NCBI GenBank assembly: GCA_009777815.1
Contig: WRLB01000012.1
Span: forward strand, 1 to 34,915
From: Bacteroidota bacterium
GTDB taxonomy: Bacteria > Bacteroidota > Ignavibacteria > Kapaibacteriales > UBA2268
DNA: 34,915 bases
Direction of reading: 5' to 3'
The notes beneath the pieces are model-generated. The model did no database searches, was not told the DNA's origin, and worked only from the letters and a program-made list of their open reading frames with translations. Below are positions 7,965-31,249 of the stretch, one piece after another. Position 1 is the first letter of the stretch. Each line of letters opens with the position of its first letter. A program made the translations under genes and the position numbers.

Positions 7965-8011
7965 ATATGTGTAAAAATATAAATAAAAAAGTTTTTTATT
8001 TCAAAAAAAGT

Positions 8012-8019
8012 TATATTTG
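8012..8019 (+). promoter_or_regulatory. -7 promoter element, copy 1 of 3
   Basis: TATATTTG matches the Bacteroidota TAnnTTTG consensus. It lies 218 bases before the lipoprotein ATG. No TTTG -33 element is seen at the usual distance. Confidence 0.5.
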
Positions 8020-8073
8020 TATTTTATGTTTAACATATAAATAAAAAAGTTTTTTTATTTCAAAAAAAAATAT

Positions 8074-8081
8074 TATATTTG
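8074..8081 (+). promoter_or_regulatory. -7 promoter element, copy 2 of 3
   Basis: TATATTTG in the second tandem copy, in the same orientation and context as copy 1. Confidence 0.5.
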
Positions 8082-8135
8082 TATTTTATGTTTAACATAT
8101 AAATAAAAAAGTTTTTTTATTTCAAAAAAAATTAT

Positions 8136-8143
8136 TATATTTG
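8136..8143 (+). promoter_or_regulatory. -7 promoter element, copy 3 of 3 (closest to lipoprotein gene)
   Basis: TATATTTG. Initiation about 5 nt downstream would give a leader of roughly 90 nt. That leader carries an AAGGA ribosome site (8224-8228) before the ATG at 8237. Confidence 0.6.
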
Positions 8144-8236
8144 TATTTTATGTTTGGCATAAAACAATAAAAAGTTAGATTATTTTTTTTCATAAATGTG
8201 GTGGCACCCACGTAAAAAACTGCTAAGGATAAACCC

Positions 8237-8563
8237 ATGTTAAGTAAATTATTTTACTTGTTGTTTGCAATGTTTATTGCATTGACGCTAAATGCGTGTG
8301 GTGGCAACAAAGAAGAAGCTACCCAAGAAGATCAAGACGTAGCAATAGAAAATGTTACAAATGAAGATGCTACACCAAGCGTAGATGATATGCTTTTAGA
8401 ACTTGATCAGTTAGCAGATGCTTTCTTAAAAGCAAAAGAAGAAAATCAACCTACTGACGAACTTCTTAATACTGCTAATGAATTAAAACTAAAGTTGGAA
8501 GATGCTGAAAGGTCAGAAGACCAAATAGCAAAATATGACGAGATAGTTAAAAAATTTGAATAA
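8237..8563 (+). CDS. Small acidic lipoprotein
   Basis: 108 aa, no recognised family. A signal peptide (residues 1-20) ends in the lipobox LNAC, so Cys21 should be lipidated and the protein anchored in a membrane facing the periplasm or surface. The mature part is very acidic (EEATQEDQDVAIENVTNED), then forms a predicted amphipathic helix from about residue 50 to the end (LLELDQLADAFLKAKEE... LKLKLEDAERSEDQIAKY). The start is supported by an AAGGA site 8 bases upstream and by the signal peptide. The gene stands alone, with three tandem promoters upstream and a strong terminator downstream, which suggests high or finely tuned expression. Small, abundant, helical lipoproteins of this type are often envelope structural proteins, but that role is only a guess here. 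Confidence 0.85.
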   Translation: MLSKLFYLLFAMFIALTLNACGGNKEEATQEDQDVAIENVTNEDATPSVDDMLLELDQLADAFLKAKEENQPTDELLNTANELKLKLEDAERSEDQIAKYDEIVKKFE

Positions 8564-8763: not shown

Positions 8764-10218
8764 CTATTCATCTTTCAGCATTTGTTTTAGTATCATAAAA
8801 CTTTTGCCGCTGACGGCTTTACCTTTCATTTCTTTTTCTTCTTTTTCGGATAGTTCTTCTTCTGATGTGTTATGTTTTTCTACTTGCATTCTTGCTTTTC
8901 TGAATATAACTCCTTTTGCTTCTTCAATATCTGTTGTATCAAAATCTGTTATATCATCGCTTTCGTGACGAACTTTTTTAACTGCTTGGAGCATTGTATT
9001 ATCTAATTCTTGGTTCAGTGCTTCTTCGCTACTATCTATATCTTTGAATAGTATATCGCCGCTGTATTCTTTTTGCAATCTATCTCTATCGCTAAAATAT
9101 TCTATTCCGCTTATATCGGGTATTGTAAATTTACTTTCTATTTCTGTTAATAAGTTCCTGTCGAATTCATTTTTTAATATCTCTTTTTCTTGTGCAAGTT
9201 CTGCTGTTGTTGGTGGAGGCGGAAGTTCTATTACTTTTTGCATAAATTTATTCCGTTTGCTTTGAACTATGCGTTCTTTTTCTGCTTCTAATTCTAACAT
9301 CTTTTGTTCTTCTTCTGCTTTTATTCGTGCTTCTTCTTCTTTTAATATGCGTAATTGTTCTTCTTCTACTATTCTGCGTTTTTCTTCTTGGATGCGTAAT
9401 CTTTCTATTTCTTCGAAACGTTTTCTTTCTTTATCTATTTTATCTCTTAATAGTTCGTCTGCTTTTAATTTTTCTTCTGCGAGCAATCTATTCTTTTCTT
9501 CTTCTAATTTAGCCATTTTTTCTCTTGTTTTATTTTCTGCAACCATATAGAATACTAAATGCATCAACACTCCTATCAAAAAATAACAAAAGCAAAACGA
9601 AGTAAATAATACCAATGCCGTTGGGGCTATACCTACATCTAAAATGAAAAAAAACAATATTATTAAAAACATTGATATTAAAAAATTAACGTGATTTAAT
9701 ATCTTAAATGGCAACTTTTTTAATCGTTTTATTCGTTCTTTTTCTTCTTTATATACTTCTAAAATCCGTCTATTTTTATCATTATGTTTTTTTAATGCTT
9801 CTTCTATTATTATTATTTTTCTTAACTCGAAGGGGCTTTTGATTGCTTGTTTTTTCTTTAAATTTTTTATTAGTTTGAACACACCGAAAGGCAATCCTAC
9901 TATTGAAATCATTAGTAAAATTGCATTTCTAATACCTTTTTTTATATTTTTTTCTTCTTTACGTTGTTTAATTTGCAGTTCTTTATCGTTTTCTAAAATA
10001 TCTGCATATTGTTTGATTTTCAGAGCAGTTTTTCTTAATTGTTTTTCTTTTAATTCTGCTTTAGTTGATTTTTTATTATTGGATATATTATCAGAAATAG
10101 GAAGCGAATTGCCATTAGTTTTAGCAATTTCGCCTTTAACATTAGCATCTGCTTTTACGATTTGATTATTATTTTCTGTTATATTGATTTCCTGCAATTC
10201 TTTATTTTTCTTTGGCAT
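8764..10218 (-). CDS. Coiled-coil membrane protein of unknown function
   Basis: 484 aa; no family recognised. The N-terminal 95 residues are polar and lysine-rich. Hydrophobic segments lie at about 98-118, 174-194 and 199-226, the last two forming a hairpin. A long charged coiled coil follows (about 228-320; KRFEEIERLRIQEEKRR-type, rich in E, K and R). After it come a proline stretch (IELPPPPTTAE, about 331-340) and an acidic C-terminal region. The layout suggests a membrane-anchored scaffold or cytoskeletal/envelope linker with a large cytoplasmic coiled coil. The gene is transcribed leftward, away from the sRNA-like array that starts right at its 5' end. No convincing minus-strand TAnnTTTG element lies immediately upstream. 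Many antisense open frames here are by-products of the low-complexity coiled-coil codons. Confidence 0.8.
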   Translation of the reverse strand: MPKKNKELQEINITENNNQIVKADANVKGEIAKTNGNSLPISDNISNNKKSTKAELKEKQLRKTALKIKQYADILENDKELQIKQRKEEKNIKKGIRNAILLMISIVGLPFGVFKLIKNLKKKQAIKSPFELRKIIIIEEALKKHNDKNRRILEVYKEEKERIKRLKKLPFKILNHVNFLISMFLIILFFFILDVGIAPTALVLFTSFCFCYFLIGVLMHLVFYMVAENKTREKMAKLEEEKNRLLAEEKLKADELLRDKIDKERKRFEEIERLRIQEEKRRIVEEEQLRILKEEEARIKAEEEQKMLELEAEKERIVQSKRNKFMQKVIELPPPPTTAELAQEKEILKNEFDRNLLTEIESKFTIPDISGIEYFSDRDRLQKEYSGDILFKDIDSSEEALNQELDNTMLQAVKKVRHESDDITDFDTTDIEEAKGVIFRKARMQVEKHNTSEEELSEKEEKEMKGKAVSGKSFMILKQMLKDE

Positions 10219-10253
10219 AATTTTATTTCACTTTTTTTTATTATTTTTGTAAT

Positions 10254-10347
10254 TCAATATTATTTTTTTCATAATATTCACATTTTATGTGAATTGTTCC
10301 TTAAATATATTTTTAACAGATAAGAAGCAATTTTTATCTGTTTTTTT
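10254..10347 (+). ncRNA. Putative small RNA, unit 1 of 4
   Basis: The promoter-like TATTTTTG is at 10242-10249. The predicted transcript of about 94 nt holds hairpin ATTCACAT/ATGTGAAT (10276-10283, 10287-10294) and ends in terminator AACAGATAA/TTATCTGTT (10315-10342) with T7. The only ATG is followed at once by a stop codon (ATG TGA), so it is not coding. Start is inferred, end is from the T run. Confidence 0.45.
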
Positions 10348-10391
10348 ATTACAAATAACTTTATTTCATTTATTTTTATTATTTTTGTAAT

Positions 10392-10485
10392 GTATTTTTT
10401 TTTATTCATAATATTCACATTTTTATGTGAATTACCTTTAATTATATTTTTAACAGATAAGAAGCAATTTTTATCTGTTTTTTTT
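10392..10485 (+). ncRNA. Putative small RNA, unit 2 of 4
   Basis: TATTTTTG at 10380-10387; hairpin ATTCACAT/ATGTGAAT (10413-10420, 10425-10432); terminator stem 10452-10479 with T8. Very similar to unit 1, but the linker after the first hairpin differs. Confidence 0.45.
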
Positions 10486-10529
10486 ATTACAAATAACTTT
10501 ATTTCATTTATTTTTATTATTTTTGTATT

Positions 10530-10625
10530 TTATTTTTGTGTTATATATGATTTCACATTCTTATGTGAATATTCTCCTTTATAGTTATTTTTAACAGATA
10601 AGAAGCAATTTTTATCTGTTTTTTT
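10530..10625 (+). ncRNA. Putative small RNA, unit 3 of 4
   Basis: TATTTTTG at 10518-10525, with a second one at 10531-10538 that could start a shorter transcript. Hairpin TTCACAT/ATGTGAA (10552-10558, 10563-10569); terminator stem 10593-10620 with T run to 10625. Confidence 0.45.
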
Positions 10626-10669
10626 ATTACAAATAACTTTATTTCACTTTTTTTTATTATTTTTGTAAT

Positions 10670-10768
10670 CCCTTCTTAACTATTTTCTATATAGTTATCT
10701 AATTAATAAATTTTTAAAATACAAAATAAGGTTATAACAGATAGGAAGCAATTTTTATCTGTTTTTTT
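10670..10768 (+). ncRNA. Putative small RNA, unit 4 of 4 (divergent hairpin)
   Basis: TATTTTTG at 10658-10665; terminator stem 10736-10763 with T7. The first hairpin is in the corresponding place but with unrelated sequence, TAACTAT/ATAGTTA (10677-10683, 10691-10697). Structure is kept while sequence changes, which favours a functional RNA over simple duplication. Confidence 0.45.
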
Positions 10769-10844
10769 ATAAACTCTATTTCGGAATCCCCTAATTTACT
10801 ATATTTAGACACCATTTAATCTTAAATTATGTAAAAATTACATT

Positions 10845-11042
10845 AATCGGATGCGAAATAAGCAGTCGATTTAACTGCTTAAGCAGTCGATTTGACTCCT
10901 TAAGCAGTCGATTTGACTCCTTAAGCAGTCGATTTAACTGCTTAAGCAGTCGATTTGACTCCTTAAGCAGTCGATTTGACTCCTTAAGCAGTCGATTTGA
11001 CTGCTTAAGCAGTATCCGATTCTGCTTATTTCGGATCCGATT
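10845..11042. repeat. 21-bp minisatellite enclosed by 21-bp inverted repeats
   Basis: Seven 21-bp units from 10862 to 11008 (GCAGTCGATTT-R-ACT-S-CTTAA). Flanks 10845-10865 and 11022-11042 are inverted copies matching 20 of 21. Units of the AACTGC type are themselves palindromic (AAGCAGT/AACTGCTT). On the minus strand a TTG-started frame (10827-11054) reads a 7-residue repeat NRLLKES. With no promoter or ribosome site seen, I do not call it a gene. Confidence 0.85.
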
Positions 11043-11115
11043 CACTTTTTTCAATACAAAGAACTAATTTTTTTTAACTAATTATTAATAAAATTTAACC
11101 CGCTAATAATAAATT

Positions 11116-12252
11116 TTAACGGATTGCAAATAAATATTCATTCAATATATCATTATTTGCCTGCTCTATATCATCAGGAATACGCTGCCCATTACTAAAA
11201 TAACTTATCGGAATATCCTTATTATGCAGCGCCGTTATAACATTGCCAAGCCCAAAACTTTCATCTGTCCGCGTAATAATTGCCGAACTTATATCCAAAG
11301 AACTATAACCCCGTATATTACTACTCAAAAAACTCAAAGAACTCGTAGCACTCAATATCAAATTAGTTTTATTATTATACATAGACATAGTATTTATCGT
11401 ATCTTGAAGGGCAAGCAAATCATTTATCTCGCTCTTATTATTAGGATTTTTCCCCTCAGTATCTATAAAAATCATATCATATTTTGTTTCTTCATTTAGC
11501 ACCTTACTTAACTCCTCGTTGCTATAAGTATTTATAAAATTAATGCCCGCAATCCCTGTAAGCATCTGTAATTGTTCCGTTGCACCGACCCTAAAAGTAT
11601 CAGTAGAAATAACTAAAACCTTTGCTTCATTTATCAATTTCGCACCTATCGCAATTTTAATAAGTGCAGTAGTTTTGCCACATCCTGCCGAGCCAATAAA
11701 AGTAATTATTTGCTTCGTTTTATCATTTTTTTGCTCATCATTAATAAGATTTACGAACGAAATATCAGCAAGCAAAAGTTTTCTTGCCTCATTTATCGCC
11801 TTTTTATAATCATTTGCAAGCCCTTTAGCACTAATCTTACCAATAATATTAAGACACATATCTTCACTAAAATCAGAGTCCTTCATTATCTTATAAATGC
11901 GCGACAATGGCTCCGTCATCGTCCCAATATATTTATATTTAACATTTTCATAAACATCGGCAATAATGCTTTTAATAGAATTAACTTCAGCAAAAAGTTT
12001 CTGATTCAGCGTATTATCAAGCGAATTAAGTAGCAAATTGGGATGAGACGTTTTAGTATTTTCTTGGGACATTTTATTATTTTCTTGAGGCGATTTAATA
12101 GTTTCCAAACCTGCAACTATTTCCACAGCATCCATTCCTGTTTTAGTTTTCGTAGGTCTATTAGACAGAATAACTGCATCATTTCCGAGTTCTTTTTTAA
12201 TTAATTCGGTTCCTTCTTTCATATTAGCGGCGATAAACTTTTTAATTTTCAT
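11116..12252 (-). CDS. flhF: Flagellar biosynthesis SRP-family GTPase FlhF
   Basis: 378 aa, cytoplasmic GTPase of the SRP/FtsY/FlhF family. In flagellated bacteria FlhF helps choose the site of flagellum assembly, often with FlhG. The N-terminus (MKIKKFIAANMKEGTELIKKELG) is the typical FlhF start, followed by a poorly conserved linker and an N-type helical region (about 80-175). The G domain has P-loop GSAGCGKTT (187-195), STDTFRVGATEQL (about 217-228), FIDTEGK and TRTDES in place of the usual TKLDE. Its length is normal or slightly short for FlhF. No other flagellar gene lies in the window, so it is an isolated locus here. A degenerate promoter (TA, four bases, TTTG) lies upstream at about 12290-12300. 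FtsY and Ffh are less likely because of the N-terminal region and lack of an M domain. Confidence 0.9.
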   Translation of the reverse strand: MKIKKFIAANMKEGTELIKKELGNDAVILSNRPTKTKTGMDAVEIVAGLETIKSPQENNKMSQENTKTSHPNLLLNSLDNTLNQKLFAEVNSIKSIIADVYENVKYKYIGTMTEPLSRIYKIMKDSDFSEDMCLNIIGKISAKGLANDYKKAINEARKLLLADISFVNLINDEQKNDKTKQIITFIGSAGCGKTTALIKIAIGAKLINEAKVLVISTDTFRVGATEQLQMLTGIAGINFINTYSNEELSKVLNEETKYDMIFIDTEGKNPNNKSEINDLLALQDTINTMSMYNNKTNLILSATSSLSFLSSNIRGYSSLDISSAIITRTDESFGLGNVITALHNKDIPISYFSNGQRIPDDIEQANNDILNEYLFAIR

Positions 12253-27006: not shown

Positions 27007-30000
27007 TCACCTAAAATACACGAAGGTTGCGCCGCTGCCACCTTCATATATCTCGCCCAATCTAAAACTTTTTATTGCTGTAAATGTTTTTAAGTAGTTA
27101 TGTATTACTTCTCGCAAAACGCCTGTTCCCTTCCCGTGAATTATGCTTACAAAGTCCACACTGCCGTGAATTGCGTCTGAAATAAATTTATCTACTTCTT
27201 GTAATGCTTCTTCTGCTCGGTAGCCACGCAAATCTAATTTTGTATTAACGTCTAATTTTAATGGGATGGCTTTTTTTGCTTGTTGGATTACTTTTTTTGT
27301 TAAATATAATTGATGAAAAGGCAAGCGAAACTTTAAACCATTAAAACTTACTAATGCTATTTTATCTTTATTATCTGCTTCTAAAACCACGCCTACTCTA
27401 TTATTGCCGACCATACCCACGGTATCATTAAATTCTAAATGTTCTGCTAATTGCAAATTATCTTTTTTAGTTGCTTCTGCGTGTTGTATCTCGGATGTTT
27501 CGGCTGCTAAGGTGCGTTTTGCTTCTTTAAATTGGCGTGTTGCTTCTAAATCATTTTTCTTTGCATTTTTTAGTTCTTTGAGCGTATTTTCTACTAAATC
27601 GGTTGCATTTTTAAGTATTTTTTCTGCTTCTAATTTTGCATCGTTGATAATTTTATTTTTACTTTCTGTTATTTTATTTTGCTGATTATTATAATTTTCT
27701 TTAACTTTTTCTGCTTCTAATAACTGCCGCCGACATTCTAAAACTAAATGCTCATATTCTTTTTTATGCTTATGCAAACTTGCTATACTTCGCTCTAATT
27801 GTTTATGTTTATTCCCTAAATACTTCTTTGCCCGATTTAAAAGAAGTGGACTAAATCCTACATTTTTTGCAAGATAAAAAGCAAATGAATTACCAGGAAG
27901 ACCTTCTTTAAACACAAATGTTGGCTTTAGTTCTTTTGCATCAAATTCAAAAGAATCGTTTTGTATAACTGCATTATTTTTATTATTTAAAGCATAAACT
28001 TTGAGTGAAGATTGATGCGTAGTTACGATAAAAAATAAGCCCAATTCTATAAAAGTATCTAATATACCTGATGCGAGTGCGGCACCTTCACGTGGGTCCG
28101 TGCCTGAACATATTTCATCAATAAGAACTAAATAATTACTGTTGTTATCCCGAGCGTTTACCACCCCTACCCCTCCACGGGAGGGGAACTGTTCCCCTCT
28201 ATGGAGGGGTGGCAGTGCAATAGCACTGACGGGGTGGTTATTTTCATTATCATCCCGAGCAAAATCTTCGTTATCCCGAGTAAAATCTATGTTATCCCGA
28301 GCAAAATATATATCATCCCGAGCAAAATCTATGTCATGCCGAACTTGTTTCGGCATCCCCTTATATTTATCAGAAGCATTTATTAAATAATCAGTAGATG
28401 CTGAAACAAGTTCGGCATGACAGGTAGGAATTTCTCCTCTTTGGGTAGGAATTTCTCCTCTTTGGGTAGGAATTTCTCCTCTTTGGGTAGGAATTTCTCC
28501 TCTTTGGGTAGGAATTTCTCCTCTTTGAGTAGGAATTTCTCCCTTTTGGGTAGGAATTTCTCCCTTTTGGGTAGGAATTTCTCCCTTTTGGGTAGGAATT
28601 TCTCCTCTTTGGGTAGGAATTTCTCCTCTTTGGGTAGGAAAACCTACTGAATTTAGCAATAAACTTCTGTCATGCCGAACTTGTTTCGGCATCTCCTTAT
28701 ATATTTCAGTAGATGTCGTAGCAAGTTCATTATGGCAATTTGCATTCGCACTCACTACATCTAAAATATCTTTAAGGCGATTTAATTGAAATGAAAAAGT
28801 AGATAAATTTTGTTCCAAAGATTGTCCATCACCAATAGAAGAATATACATTTATAGGGCATATACGTGCTTCGCCTAAAGGAAAAATACCTAACTGCGTC
28901 ATCATTATAGCAAGTCCCGTTGTCTTCATAGCAATAGTTTTGCCTCCTGCATTTGGTCCCGAAATTAGATGTCCTCTTTTGTTAAAATTAAATGAAATAG
29001 TTAGCGGAATAGCATTTTTATGTCCCAATTTATTTACTAAAAGTGGATGCCGCATATTTTTTAGTTCAATCACGCTATCATTAGTAATAATTGGCTTAAT
29101 TCCGCCATTATCTATCGCATATAGTGCTTTCGCATTCATACTATCAAGATGCGATAAAATAGCATAATTATCAAGCAATTCAGCAGAAATAACAGCAATT
29201 AGTTTAGTCAGTGCCTTCAATATATTATTGATTTCACGCAGTTCAGCACTATGCAAAAGTGCTAATTCATTATTCAAATCAATCACCGCATTCGGCTCAA
29301 AATATACAGTTGCTCCCGTCTGCGATGCCGAATGAACTATGCCCTGCAAACGTCTTTTATGCGATGCTTTTATAGATAGCACAAAACGACCATCTTTAAT
29401 AGTATAAAAATCATCATTTACTAAATCAGCATCAGCATATTCTCGCACCAATTTAGTCATTCGCGAATGTAATTGCGAATTACTATTACGCAATTCTGCT
29501 CTAATTTTAGATAATTGAGGGGTAGCATTGTCGCGAATATTTCCATTTTCATCTATAGTTGCATTTAATTTTTTTTCTAATGTTTTATCTTCATACATCA
29601 AAGAAATTTCATCATAAAGGAGTGTGTATTTACTTTTTTTTGGACTAATAAATCTTTTCAAACCTTTAGCAAGCCGCACAATTGCTACAATTTGTTGCAT
29701 TTCTTGTATTTCCAACACTGCTCCATCTATTTTAGAACGTTTTACATAATCTCTAATATCTTCTATTCTTTCTAATGGGAAGTTTTCATCAGTAGTATTT
29801 AATTCAAATAGTTCTTGGACTTGTTGTAATTCTTTATTAAGGATATTTATGTGTGGGAATTCGGTATTTAGTATAATTTCTTTTCCTTGCGGGGTAAGAC
29901 AATACTGAACTATAAGTTGTAAAACATTATATAGTTCCAGTTCATTTTTAGTATGTTCGTTGAGTTTATAATGTATTTGCTTTATATTATTTTCTTCCAT
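27007..30000 (-). CDS. mutS2: MutS2 ATPase/nuclease with a ~200-residue repeat-derived insertion
   Basis: 997 aa; ordinary MutS2 is about 780-800. MutS2 acts on branched DNA and on stalled or collided ribosomes. Residues 1-415 are typical: core/lever helices, QGIVHSASQTGATVYFEP, Walker A GPNAGGKT (348-355) and signature GDGQSLEQNLSTFSFQL. Walker B LVLIDEICSGTDPREGAAL resumes at about 624; then comes a coiled coil (about 730-830) and a C-terminal Smr nuclease domain (LDLRGYRAEEAL, IHGKGTGVLRE). Residues about 419-619 are foreign to the family: two dispersed palindromes read as MPKQVRHD and CHAELVSAS, ten PTQRGEI/PTQKGEI heptads, a second 7-residue array and a PPLHRGEQFPSRGGVGVV segment. The frame is intact throughout. 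The promoter at 30009 leaves almost no leader. Confidence 0.95.
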   Translation of the reverse strand: MEENNIKQIHYKLNEHTKNELELYNVLQLIVQYCLTPQGKEIILNTEFPHINILNKELQQVQELFELNTTDENFPLERIEDIRDYVKRSKIDGAVLEIQEMQQIVAIVRLAKGLKRFISPKKSKYTLLYDEISLMYEDKTLEKKLNATIDENGNIRDNATPQLSKIRAELRNSNSQLHSRMTKLVREYADADLVNDDFYTIKDGRFVLSIKASHKRRLQGIVHSASQTGATVYFEPNAVIDLNNELALLHSAELREINNILKALTKLIAVISAELLDNYAILSHLDSMNAKALYAIDNGGIKPIITNDSVIELKNMRHPLLVNKLGHKNAIPLTISFNFNKRGHLISGPNAGGKTIAMKTTGLAIMMTQLGIFPLGEARICPINVYSSIGDGQSLEQNLSTFSFQLNRLKDILDVVSANANCHNELATTSTEIYKEMPKQVRHDRSLLLNSVGFPTQRGEIPTQRGEIPTQKGEIPTQKGEIPTQKGEIPTQRGEIPTQRGEIPTQRGEIPTQRGEIPTQRGEIPTCHAELVSASTDYLINASDKYKGMPKQVRHDIDFARDDIYFARDNIDFTRDNEDFARDDNENNHPVSAIALPPLHRGEQFPSRGGVGVVNARDNNSNYLVLIDEICSGTDPREGAALASGILDTFIELGLFFIVTTHQSSLKVYALNNKNNAVIQNDSFEFDAKELKPTFVFKEGLPGNSFAFYLAKNVGFSPLLLNRAKKYLGNKHKQLERSIASLHKHKKEYEHLVLECRRQLLEAEKVKENYNNQQNKITESKNKIINDAKLEAEKILKNATDLVENTLKELKNAKKNDLEATRQFKEAKRTLAAETSEIQHAEATKKDNLQLAEHLEFNDTVGMVGNNRVGVVLEADNKDKIALVSFNGLKFRLPFHQLYLTKKVIQQAKKAIPLKLDVNTKLDLRGYRAEEALQEVDKFISDAIHGSVDFVSIIHGKGTGVLREVIHNYLKTFTAIKSFRLGEIYEGGSGATFVYFR
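28161..28237. repeat. GC-rich palindromic element inside mutS2
   Basis: Outer arms CCACCCC/GGGGTGG enclose CCCCTCCACGGGAGGGG and CCCCTCTATGGAGGGG and GCAGTGC-AATA-GCACTG. Much richer in GC than its surroundings. Confidence 0.8.
28252..28335. repeat. 21-bp tandem array (4 copies) inside mutS2
   Basis: Units ATCCCGAGCAAAATCTNNGTT begin at 28252, 28273, 28294 and 28315, running into ATGCCGAAC at 28336 in the same phase. Translated on the minus strand as DIDFARD-type heptads. Confidence 0.85.
28333..28422. repeat. Composite dispersed palindrome, first copy in mutS2
   Basis: TGCCGAACTTGTTTCGGCA, spacer with CCCCTTATATTTATCAG and TCAGTAGATG, then CTGAAACAAGTTCGGCATGA. Same two-half order as the intergenic copy at 16806-16875. 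Confidence 0.85.
28423..28648. repeat. 21-bp minisatellite (10 copies plus partial) in mutS2
   Basis: Ten units GGTAGGAATTTCTCCTCTTTG or its CCCTTTTG variant (28423-28632), then a partial unit. Three adjacent units carry the variant, showing spread by unit duplication. Encodes PTQRGEI/PTQKGEI on the minus strand. Confidence 0.95.
28669..28737. repeat. Composite dispersed palindrome, second copy in mutS2
   Basis: Starts GTCATGCCGAACTTGTTTCGGCATC, then CTCCTTATATATTTCAGTAGATG, then a decayed half GTCGTAGCAAGTTCATTATGGCA. Confidence 0.85.
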
Positions 30001-30109: not shown

Positions 30110-31249
30110 ATGCGTATATCAAAAAAATCTTTTATCGTAGCAATAATATTTGCTATAAGTTTTAGTGCAAAAATGAATGCTGATTGCACTAACACATTAG
30201 TTATTACTGACATTACTAATCCACCCGTAATAACAGAACCTACCTGTATAAAATTTGATGAAAGTATTACAGAAATACCTGAAAGGTTGTATTATGAACT
30301 TGAATATCCTGAAAGAGGTGGTAAGAATATTACAGGTATAATTGGAGAAAACATAATAAACATTGGTATAGAATCTTTTTGTTATTGGGGAATGGGTGGA
30401 GGTCAAATTGCAGAGTTGTATTTGCCAAATGTAATAAATATTGAAGAACGGGCATTTATGTTTAATCTTATAACAGAATTAAATTTACCAAATGTCGTAA
30501 CTATTGGAGGACTGGCTTTTCGTAATAATCTTATAACAGAATTATATTTGCCAAATGTAACAAGTATGGAAGTATTTGCATTTGCTTACAATCAAATCAC
30601 AGAATTGTTTTTGCCGAATGCAATAACTATTGATCACGGAGCATTTATTGACAATCAAATCACAGAATTATATTTGCCAAATGTAGTAACTATTAGAGAG
30701 GGAGCATTTGCTGACAATCAAATCGCAGAATTATATTTGCCAAATGTAGTAACTATTGAAGGGTGGGCATTTCACAAAAATCCTATAAAATTAGTAACTT
30801 TAGGCACAGATTTTACAATTCCTACATTAATAAAAGCAGATAGTACTGAATTGGGACCATTTTACGCTGTAAAAACCGAAGAAGCAGATTTAATATTAGG
30901 TGAGTTTGTTTTGCCCGAAAGAGATGGCAATAAGTGGAATGGCTATACTTGGAAGAGTATCACAATATTAGGTATAGCAGAAAACAGCATAGCAACGCAT
31001 CTAACAATTTCGCCAAATCCTACTTATTCTGATGCAATAATAAGTTTTTGTTTGCTTGAGAGTTGCGATATAACTTTTGAGATTTGCGATGTTTTAGGGA
31101 ATGTTTTATATGCAATTTCTAACTTTTACGATACAGGTGAGCATAACGAAACCCTTAATACAAGCGACCTTTTAAGTGGCAACTATCTTTGCCGAATGCT
31201 CGCAAAAAATAAGCAAATCGCAAGCGAGAAGTTCGCCGTGGTAAAATAA
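30110..31249 (+). CDS. BspA-like leucine-rich-repeat surface protein with T9SS domain
   Basis: 379 aa. A signal peptide (SFIVAIIFAISFSAKMNA, cleavage about residue 24) precedes six LRR_5/BspA-type repeats at a strict 21-residue period (starting Ile100, 121, 142, 163, 184, 205; consensus ITELYLPNVVTIxxxAFxxNQ). A type A T9SS domain closes the protein (about 305-379; LTISPNPTYSDAIISF... FEICDVLGNVLYAI... LLSGNYLCRMLAKNK). BspA-like proteins usually bind host or partner surfaces; the target here is unknown. The DNA repeats are about 63 bp and very similar, indicating recent expansion. Single gene with its own promoter, convergent with the rubrerythrin gene. Confidence 0.9.
   Translation: MRISKKSFIVAIIFAISFSAKMNADCTNTLVITDITNPPVITEPTCIKFDESITEIPERLYYELEYPERGGKNITGIIGENIINIGIESFCYWGMGGGQIAELYLPNVINIEERAFMFNLITELNLPNVVTIGGLAFRNNLITELYLPNVTSMEVFAFAYNQITELFLPNAITIDHGAFIDNQITELYLPNVVTIREGAFADNQIAELYLPNVVTIEGWAFHKNPIKLVTLGTDFTIPTLIKADSTELGPFYAVKTEEADLILGEFVLPERDGNKWNGYTWKSITILGIAENSIATHLTISPNPTYSDAIISFCLLESCDITFEICDVLGNVLYAISNFYDTGEHNETLNTSDLLSGNYLCRMLAKNKQIASEKFAVVK

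Follow-up and report, generated by a model that had tools for sequence, protein, structure and literature searches.

The window analysed here is a 34,915-nucleotide stretch of a Kapaibacteriales (Ignavibacteria, Bacteroidota) assembly (contig WRLB01000012.1), and between positions 10222 and 10770 it carries four tandem plus-strand units, each made up of a promoter (TTTATTTC-N12-TATTTTTG), then a small hairpin and finally a terminator with a U tail. The array lies between two minus-strand genes, one for a 484-aa coiled-coil membrane protein of no Pfam family (8764–10218) and one for an flhF-like SRP54-type GTPase (11116–12252). The nearest records by flhF protein belong to Ignavibacteria, Candidatus Kapaibacterium and unclassified Bacteroidetes MAGs; the closest named one is MAG AS23ysBPME_80, perhaps of digester origin. 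In the closest relative by this protein, a MinD/FlhG-type ATPase gene stands between flhF and the membrane-protein gene, all three directly adjacent. Here that ATPase gene is absent, and the interval from 10218 to 11116 is taken up by the array and a tract of 21-bp repeats. No match to the ATPase protein was found in the organism’s own genome, which is 73% complete. The repeat tract beside the array (10845–11042) consists of seven 21-bp tandem repeats (TAAGCAGTCGATTTGACTCCT) and is enclosed by the two arms of a long inverted repeat, AATCGGATGCGAAATAAGCAG / CTGCTTATTTCGGATCCGATT.

Repeats of other kinds are also present. A MutS2-like gene (27007–30000) contains in-frame 21-bp repeats. It also encodes peptides, among them MPKQVRHD and CHAELVSAS, that resemble translations of an intergenic palindromic repeat of this genome (TGCTGAAACAAGTTCAGCATGAC) and are reminiscent of the Rickettsia palindromic elements. 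It is followed by a leucine-rich-repeat-like surface protein gene with 63/126-bp tandem repeats (30110–31249). Elsewhere in the genome, near a contig end (L289 1400–1959, G000:C7), several palindromic and tandem repeat families are densely mixed next to an array of the third class described below.

The four units are regularly spaced. Their promoters are 138, 138, and 140 bp apart and their terminators 137, 141, and 143 bp apart, and Tandem Repeats Finder reports a period of 138 bp with 3.3 copies and 88% matches. Unit 1 has its promoter at 10222–10249, a CATAA motif (the complement of a TTATG start context, of putative function) at 10270–10274, a body hairpin predicted by folding (ATTCACAT/ATGTGAAT) at 10276–10294, and a terminator hairpin at 10315–10342 followed by a T tract to 10348. 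Unit 2 repeats this arrangement, with promoter at 10360–10387, CATAA motif (again of putative function) at 10407–10411, predicted body hairpin at 10413–10432 and T-tailed terminator hairpin at 10452–10479. In unit 3, the promoter (10498–10525) is followed by a second TATTTTTG at 10531–10538, a predicted body hairpin at 10552–10569 and a T-tailed terminator hairpin at 10593–10620. Unit 4 comprises a promoter (10638–10665), a predicted body hairpin (10677–10697) whose sequence is unlike that of units 1–3, and a T-tailed terminator hairpin (10736–10763, the AACAGATAGG variant). The terminator of the array has a 12-bp stem, a GCAA loop and a tail of seven to eight T; in unit 4 an A-to-G change turns an A-U pair into G.U. 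All four units fold better than their dinucleotide shuffles (z = −4.7, −5.9, −3.8, and −2.2).

An earlier note on this DNA, made from the letters alone, had described four small-RNA-like units with their own promoter, hairpin and terminator, and the positions of promoters and terminators together with the folding against shuffles bear this out. The hairpins it named, TTCACAT/ATGTGAA in units 1–3 and TAACTAT/ATAGTTA in unit 4, are present as claimed, and its reading that structure is kept while sequence changes within the array agrees with the sequence. Its picture of the array was incomplete, as it missed the second TATTTTTG of unit 3 (10531) and the occurrence of the same type of unit elsewhere in the genome; some 30 other loci and two additional terminator classes escaped it because they lie outside the window. 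Its suggestion that transcription may also start in the opposite direction from the linker is not supported, since a complete TAnnTTTG box is lacking on the array's minus strand.

In Bacteroidota, the −7 promoter element is known to read TAnnTTTG. Allowing one mismatch, the pattern TTTATTTC-N12-TANNTTTGTA has 63 matches in the organism’s own genome versus four for the reversed pattern; several of these matches precede ordinary genes, and others stand ahead of further arrays. A similar pattern gave 27 matches versus none reversed in the directly read stretches of this genome, and one and two matches in two samples of relatives with similar GC. The array promoter is the genome’s own consensus promoter. 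Within the window, seven promoter matches were found versus 0.28 expected. Upstream of a 108-aa lipoprotein-like gene (8237–8563), three tandem 62-bp promoter-like copies (TTTATTTC-N12-TATATTTG) at 7977–8155 form a promoter array without terminators.

Searches beyond the window place the array within a much larger set. Roughly half of the 1.94-Mb genome, a Kapabacteria/Ignavibacteria-type MAG, was read directly and the remainder was covered by pattern searches; together these yield ~107 such terminators in three classes (~95 of the main type, four of the window type and eight of a third type), spread over about 36 loci, at least 19 of which are tandem arrays. Since several arrays lie at contig ends, these counts are lower bounds, and the class is known from this one MAG. 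A search for a promoter box followed by a short body and an AACAG...CTGTT hairpin gave 26 matches in the genome and none for the reversed control, and the main terminator (AACAGCA[GT][GA]GC with a TTCG loop, up to three mismatches) has 92 matches and none in the control. Taking the main type, its long-loop variants and the window’s four together gives 99 class I and II terminators at 32 loci; 19 of these loci contain at least two units, and the largest contains nine. At 88 of these 99 terminators the promoter box is in register, and at 86 it is exactly TATTTTTG.

A scan for clustered promoter-terminator units that ignores the stem sequence found 20 clusters of at least two units in 1 Mb of the genome; it misses the window array because it requires three G-C pairs in the stem. 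Two of the 20 clusters have the third terminator type, ACACA..TGC..TGTGT, which occurs at eight sites genome-wide with no control matches, and by eye its units likewise carry their own promoter and terminator. The window array and the main type have the same promoter type, spacing and outer terminator stem (AACAG/CTGTT), and one main-type unit, on contig C28, begins TAATGTATTTTTTTTTTATTCATA, almost matching the start of window unit 2 (TAATGTATTTTTTTTTATTCATA). The inner stem and loop differ between the two, and the window bodies are among the longer ones. Judged from sequence, common descent of the window array and the main type is likely but not proven. The arrays sit in ordinary intergenic DNA, some pointing the same way as the next gene and others converging on it, and no common neighbour gene was found across them.

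Searches outside this genome covered 53 others from the family, where the main-type pattern does not occur except for a few isolated matches in four of them. The array pattern was not found in GTDB r220 contigs or in viral contigs, collections from which records very near the organism’s own genome may have been left out. In 748 kb from six relatives there were no clusters of two or more units; single terminators were about as frequent there as in the organism’s own genome (13.2 versus 12.0 per 100 kb). DNA similarity searches in relatives returned AT-rich low-complexity matches only. A covariance model of the four units, as proposed in the earlier note, recovered those same four units when run over 119 genomes, and otherwise just two weak matches in the organism’s own genome. 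The Rfam search proposed alongside it agrees with the view that the units belong to no known family: the window matches nothing in Rfam 15 at either the curated or the relaxed threshold, and neither the window nor six other loci matched any of the 4227 models of that release, which may lack the FopS model discussed below. Comparable multiplication of sRNA genes was not found in any relative examined, and no such arrays were found in the open-access literature on this group.

Across the units, conservation is concentrated at the two ends. Mean pairwise identity is 0.91 for terminators and 0.76 for promoters, versus 0.56 for the bodies, and shuffled bodies reach 0.54. The terminator stem has 95.8% standard pairs, and its pair 8–19 switches between G.U and U-A, with both sides changed in eight distinct sequences. 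The covariation score of this pair is 0.152 versus 0.113 in shuffled alignments, and one in 500 shuffles is as high, although related rows make the test imperfect. Non-redundant bodies fold at −208.7 kcal/mol versus −134.8 ± 10.9 kcal/mol for their shuffles (z = −6.8), whereas 60 ordinary leaders taken from other sites of this promoter in the genome fold no better than their shuffles (−113.7 versus −115.8, z = 0.2). Random intergenic pieces of this repeat-rich genome gave folding ratios of 1.05, 1.49, and 1.65, sometimes equal to the bodies, and folding by itself therefore does not set the arrays apart. Near-identical bodies occur as eight pairs within arrays and 15 pairs between arrays, at times with differing terminator variants; a single-linkage grouping of bodies by identity was set aside, as low complexity merged most of them. 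The earlier note had taken the units to be non-coding, and this agrees with the closed ATG frames of the bodies, which average 2.06 codons versus 1.89 in shuffles; with frame lengths equal to those of shuffles, we rejected the idea of coding units.

The most enriched 3-mer and 4-mer of the non-redundant bodies are CAT and CATA (17 versus 5.1 for CATA). CATA is held by 37 of 87 bodies, versus 12.3 expected, while TATG is at expectation, and four of the eight third-class bodies have it as well. Because 61% of the predicted start codons in this genome are preceded by T, CATA reads as an anti-start motif. Where bodies match real genes across the ATG, the matches exceed in length those of shuffled bodies (9.75 versus 8.09 ± 0.23). 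With CATA fixed and the flanks shuffled, there was no gain in complementarity to real start regions (11.32 versus 11.32), and extended pairing with start regions did not exceed this control. Taken together, the flank control and the CATA enrichment support the motif and not extended pairing. The matches between bodies and gene starts showed no frame effect, which counts against pairing at starts and led us to reject the idea of bodies as inverted copies of real gene starts.

Several known systems are informative for comparison. LhrC in Listeria, Qrr in Vibrio and PrrF1/F2 in Pseudomonas comprise two to about seven similar, neighbouring sRNA copies. The units described here likewise lie side by side with separate promoters and terminators, but they are an order of magnitude more numerous and their bodies are mostly unrelated. 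Dispersed palindromic repeats such as REP, RPE and MITE-like elements repeat one conserved element; our units resemble them in being dispersed, palindromic, lineage-specific and intergenic, but differ in keeping promoter and terminator constant around a variable middle. To our knowledge, multicopy sRNA families so far run from a few to some fifteen copies. Multicopy (sibling) sRNA genes are recognised by repeated copies that each carry a promoter and an intrinsic terminator of their own, and this is what we find here. The closest parallel may be the FopS family (family of paralogous sRNAs) of Bacteroides thetaiotaomicron, whose members base-pair close to start codons and are bound by the RRM protein RbpB, and which has 14 copies with a conserved single-stranded 5′ seed, R1 (PMC11697453); according to its authors, a covariance model has been deposited in Rfam (PMC11697453). 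Like FopS/GibS (~65–70 nt, PMC11697453), the units here are multicopy, from Bacteroidota, and have TAnnTTTG-type promoters and an intrinsic terminator, and this genome also encodes an RRM protein (C45:2162). Unlike FopS, they number ~107, the terminator is the conserved part, and the 5′ body varies and is often hairpinned; the bodies have no extended 5′ sequence in common.

From the architecture and its comparison with random expectation, we consider it highly probable that the units are genuine sRNA genes. The promoter and terminator architecture, the copy number, the diversified bodies that fold above random and the CATA enrichment can all be read in the DNA, and transcription of the units is predicted. 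On this reading the genome would hold a dispersed class of non-coding RNA genes, very short and independently transcribed, with the window array as one of its loci. Each gene would combine a general promoter, a variable and often hairpinned body, and one of three related intrinsic terminators; such units would be copied locally and turn up at other loci as well. Their predicted transcripts of ~50–105 nt would make up a diversified family of trans-acting sRNAs, in which a CAUA-containing stretch may pair with the start-codon regions of mRNAs, possibly aided by the genome’s RRM-domain RNA-binding protein as a presumed partner. Because FopS acts near starts and an RRM protein is encoded here, a base-pairing family is our leading idea. 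As an overall explanation, such a diversified family of trans-acting sRNAs, with CAUA pairing as its preferred mechanism, has, in our estimate, an even chance of being right; pairing at start codons, taken by itself, we propose tentatively. Equally tentative is the notion of a modular sRNA repertoire resembling a cassette library, in which interchangeable hairpin bodies would be copied and diversified between arrays within a constant promoter-terminator frame.

Other explanations account for parts of the same evidence. The units could be a self-propagating or neutral repeat, a promoter-terminator segment that is tandemly duplicated, perhaps transcribed, and without function. Their strong lineage specificity, the abundance of other palindromic repeats in the genome, the near-identical bodies within and between arrays and the lack of common neighbour genes would all suit such a repeat. 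Neutral copies would, however, be expected to decay evenly, whereas here the box and the terminator stem are near-constant and the bodies are at shuffled-level identity; the compensating pair in the terminator stem also speaks against it, and we regard this explanation as unlikely. Rather improbable, in our view, is that the RNAs serve as protein ligands, with many hairpin RNAs of similar 3′ end binding or titrating the RRM protein or another RNA-binding protein; the body would then be free to vary provided a hairpin and a short CAUA-like motif remain. This would account for bodies that diverge in sequence yet fold above random, and for a short motif enriched without extended target complementarity in a genome that encodes an RRM protein; but 37 of 87 bodies, fewer than half, hold the motif, and nearly all relatives have RRM proteins but no arrays. 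A tandem constant frame with variable inserts also recalls a CRISPR-like or other guide array, in which constant repeats would separate guides for a nuclease; a CRISPR-like array would have identical repeats and unrelated spacers read from one shared leader promoter. Against this are the separate promoter and terminator of each unit, bodies that form paralogous families and often fold on themselves, the absence of the pattern from viral contigs, and the lack of any recognised nuclease gene among the ORFs adjoining the window array, which together make a guide array very improbable.

If an expanded family of trans-acting sRNAs is indeed what these arrays encode, similar sRNA arrays between genes may be going unnoticed in uncultured relatives of the Bacteroidota, because gene callers and Rfam are both silent on them. 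With ~107 very short units, mostly in arrays, whose signals are frozen and whose bodies are free, this genome would allow the birth, copying and diversification of sRNA genes to be studied, and if the modular repertoire were true, a single bacterium would hold more than 100 short RNAs.
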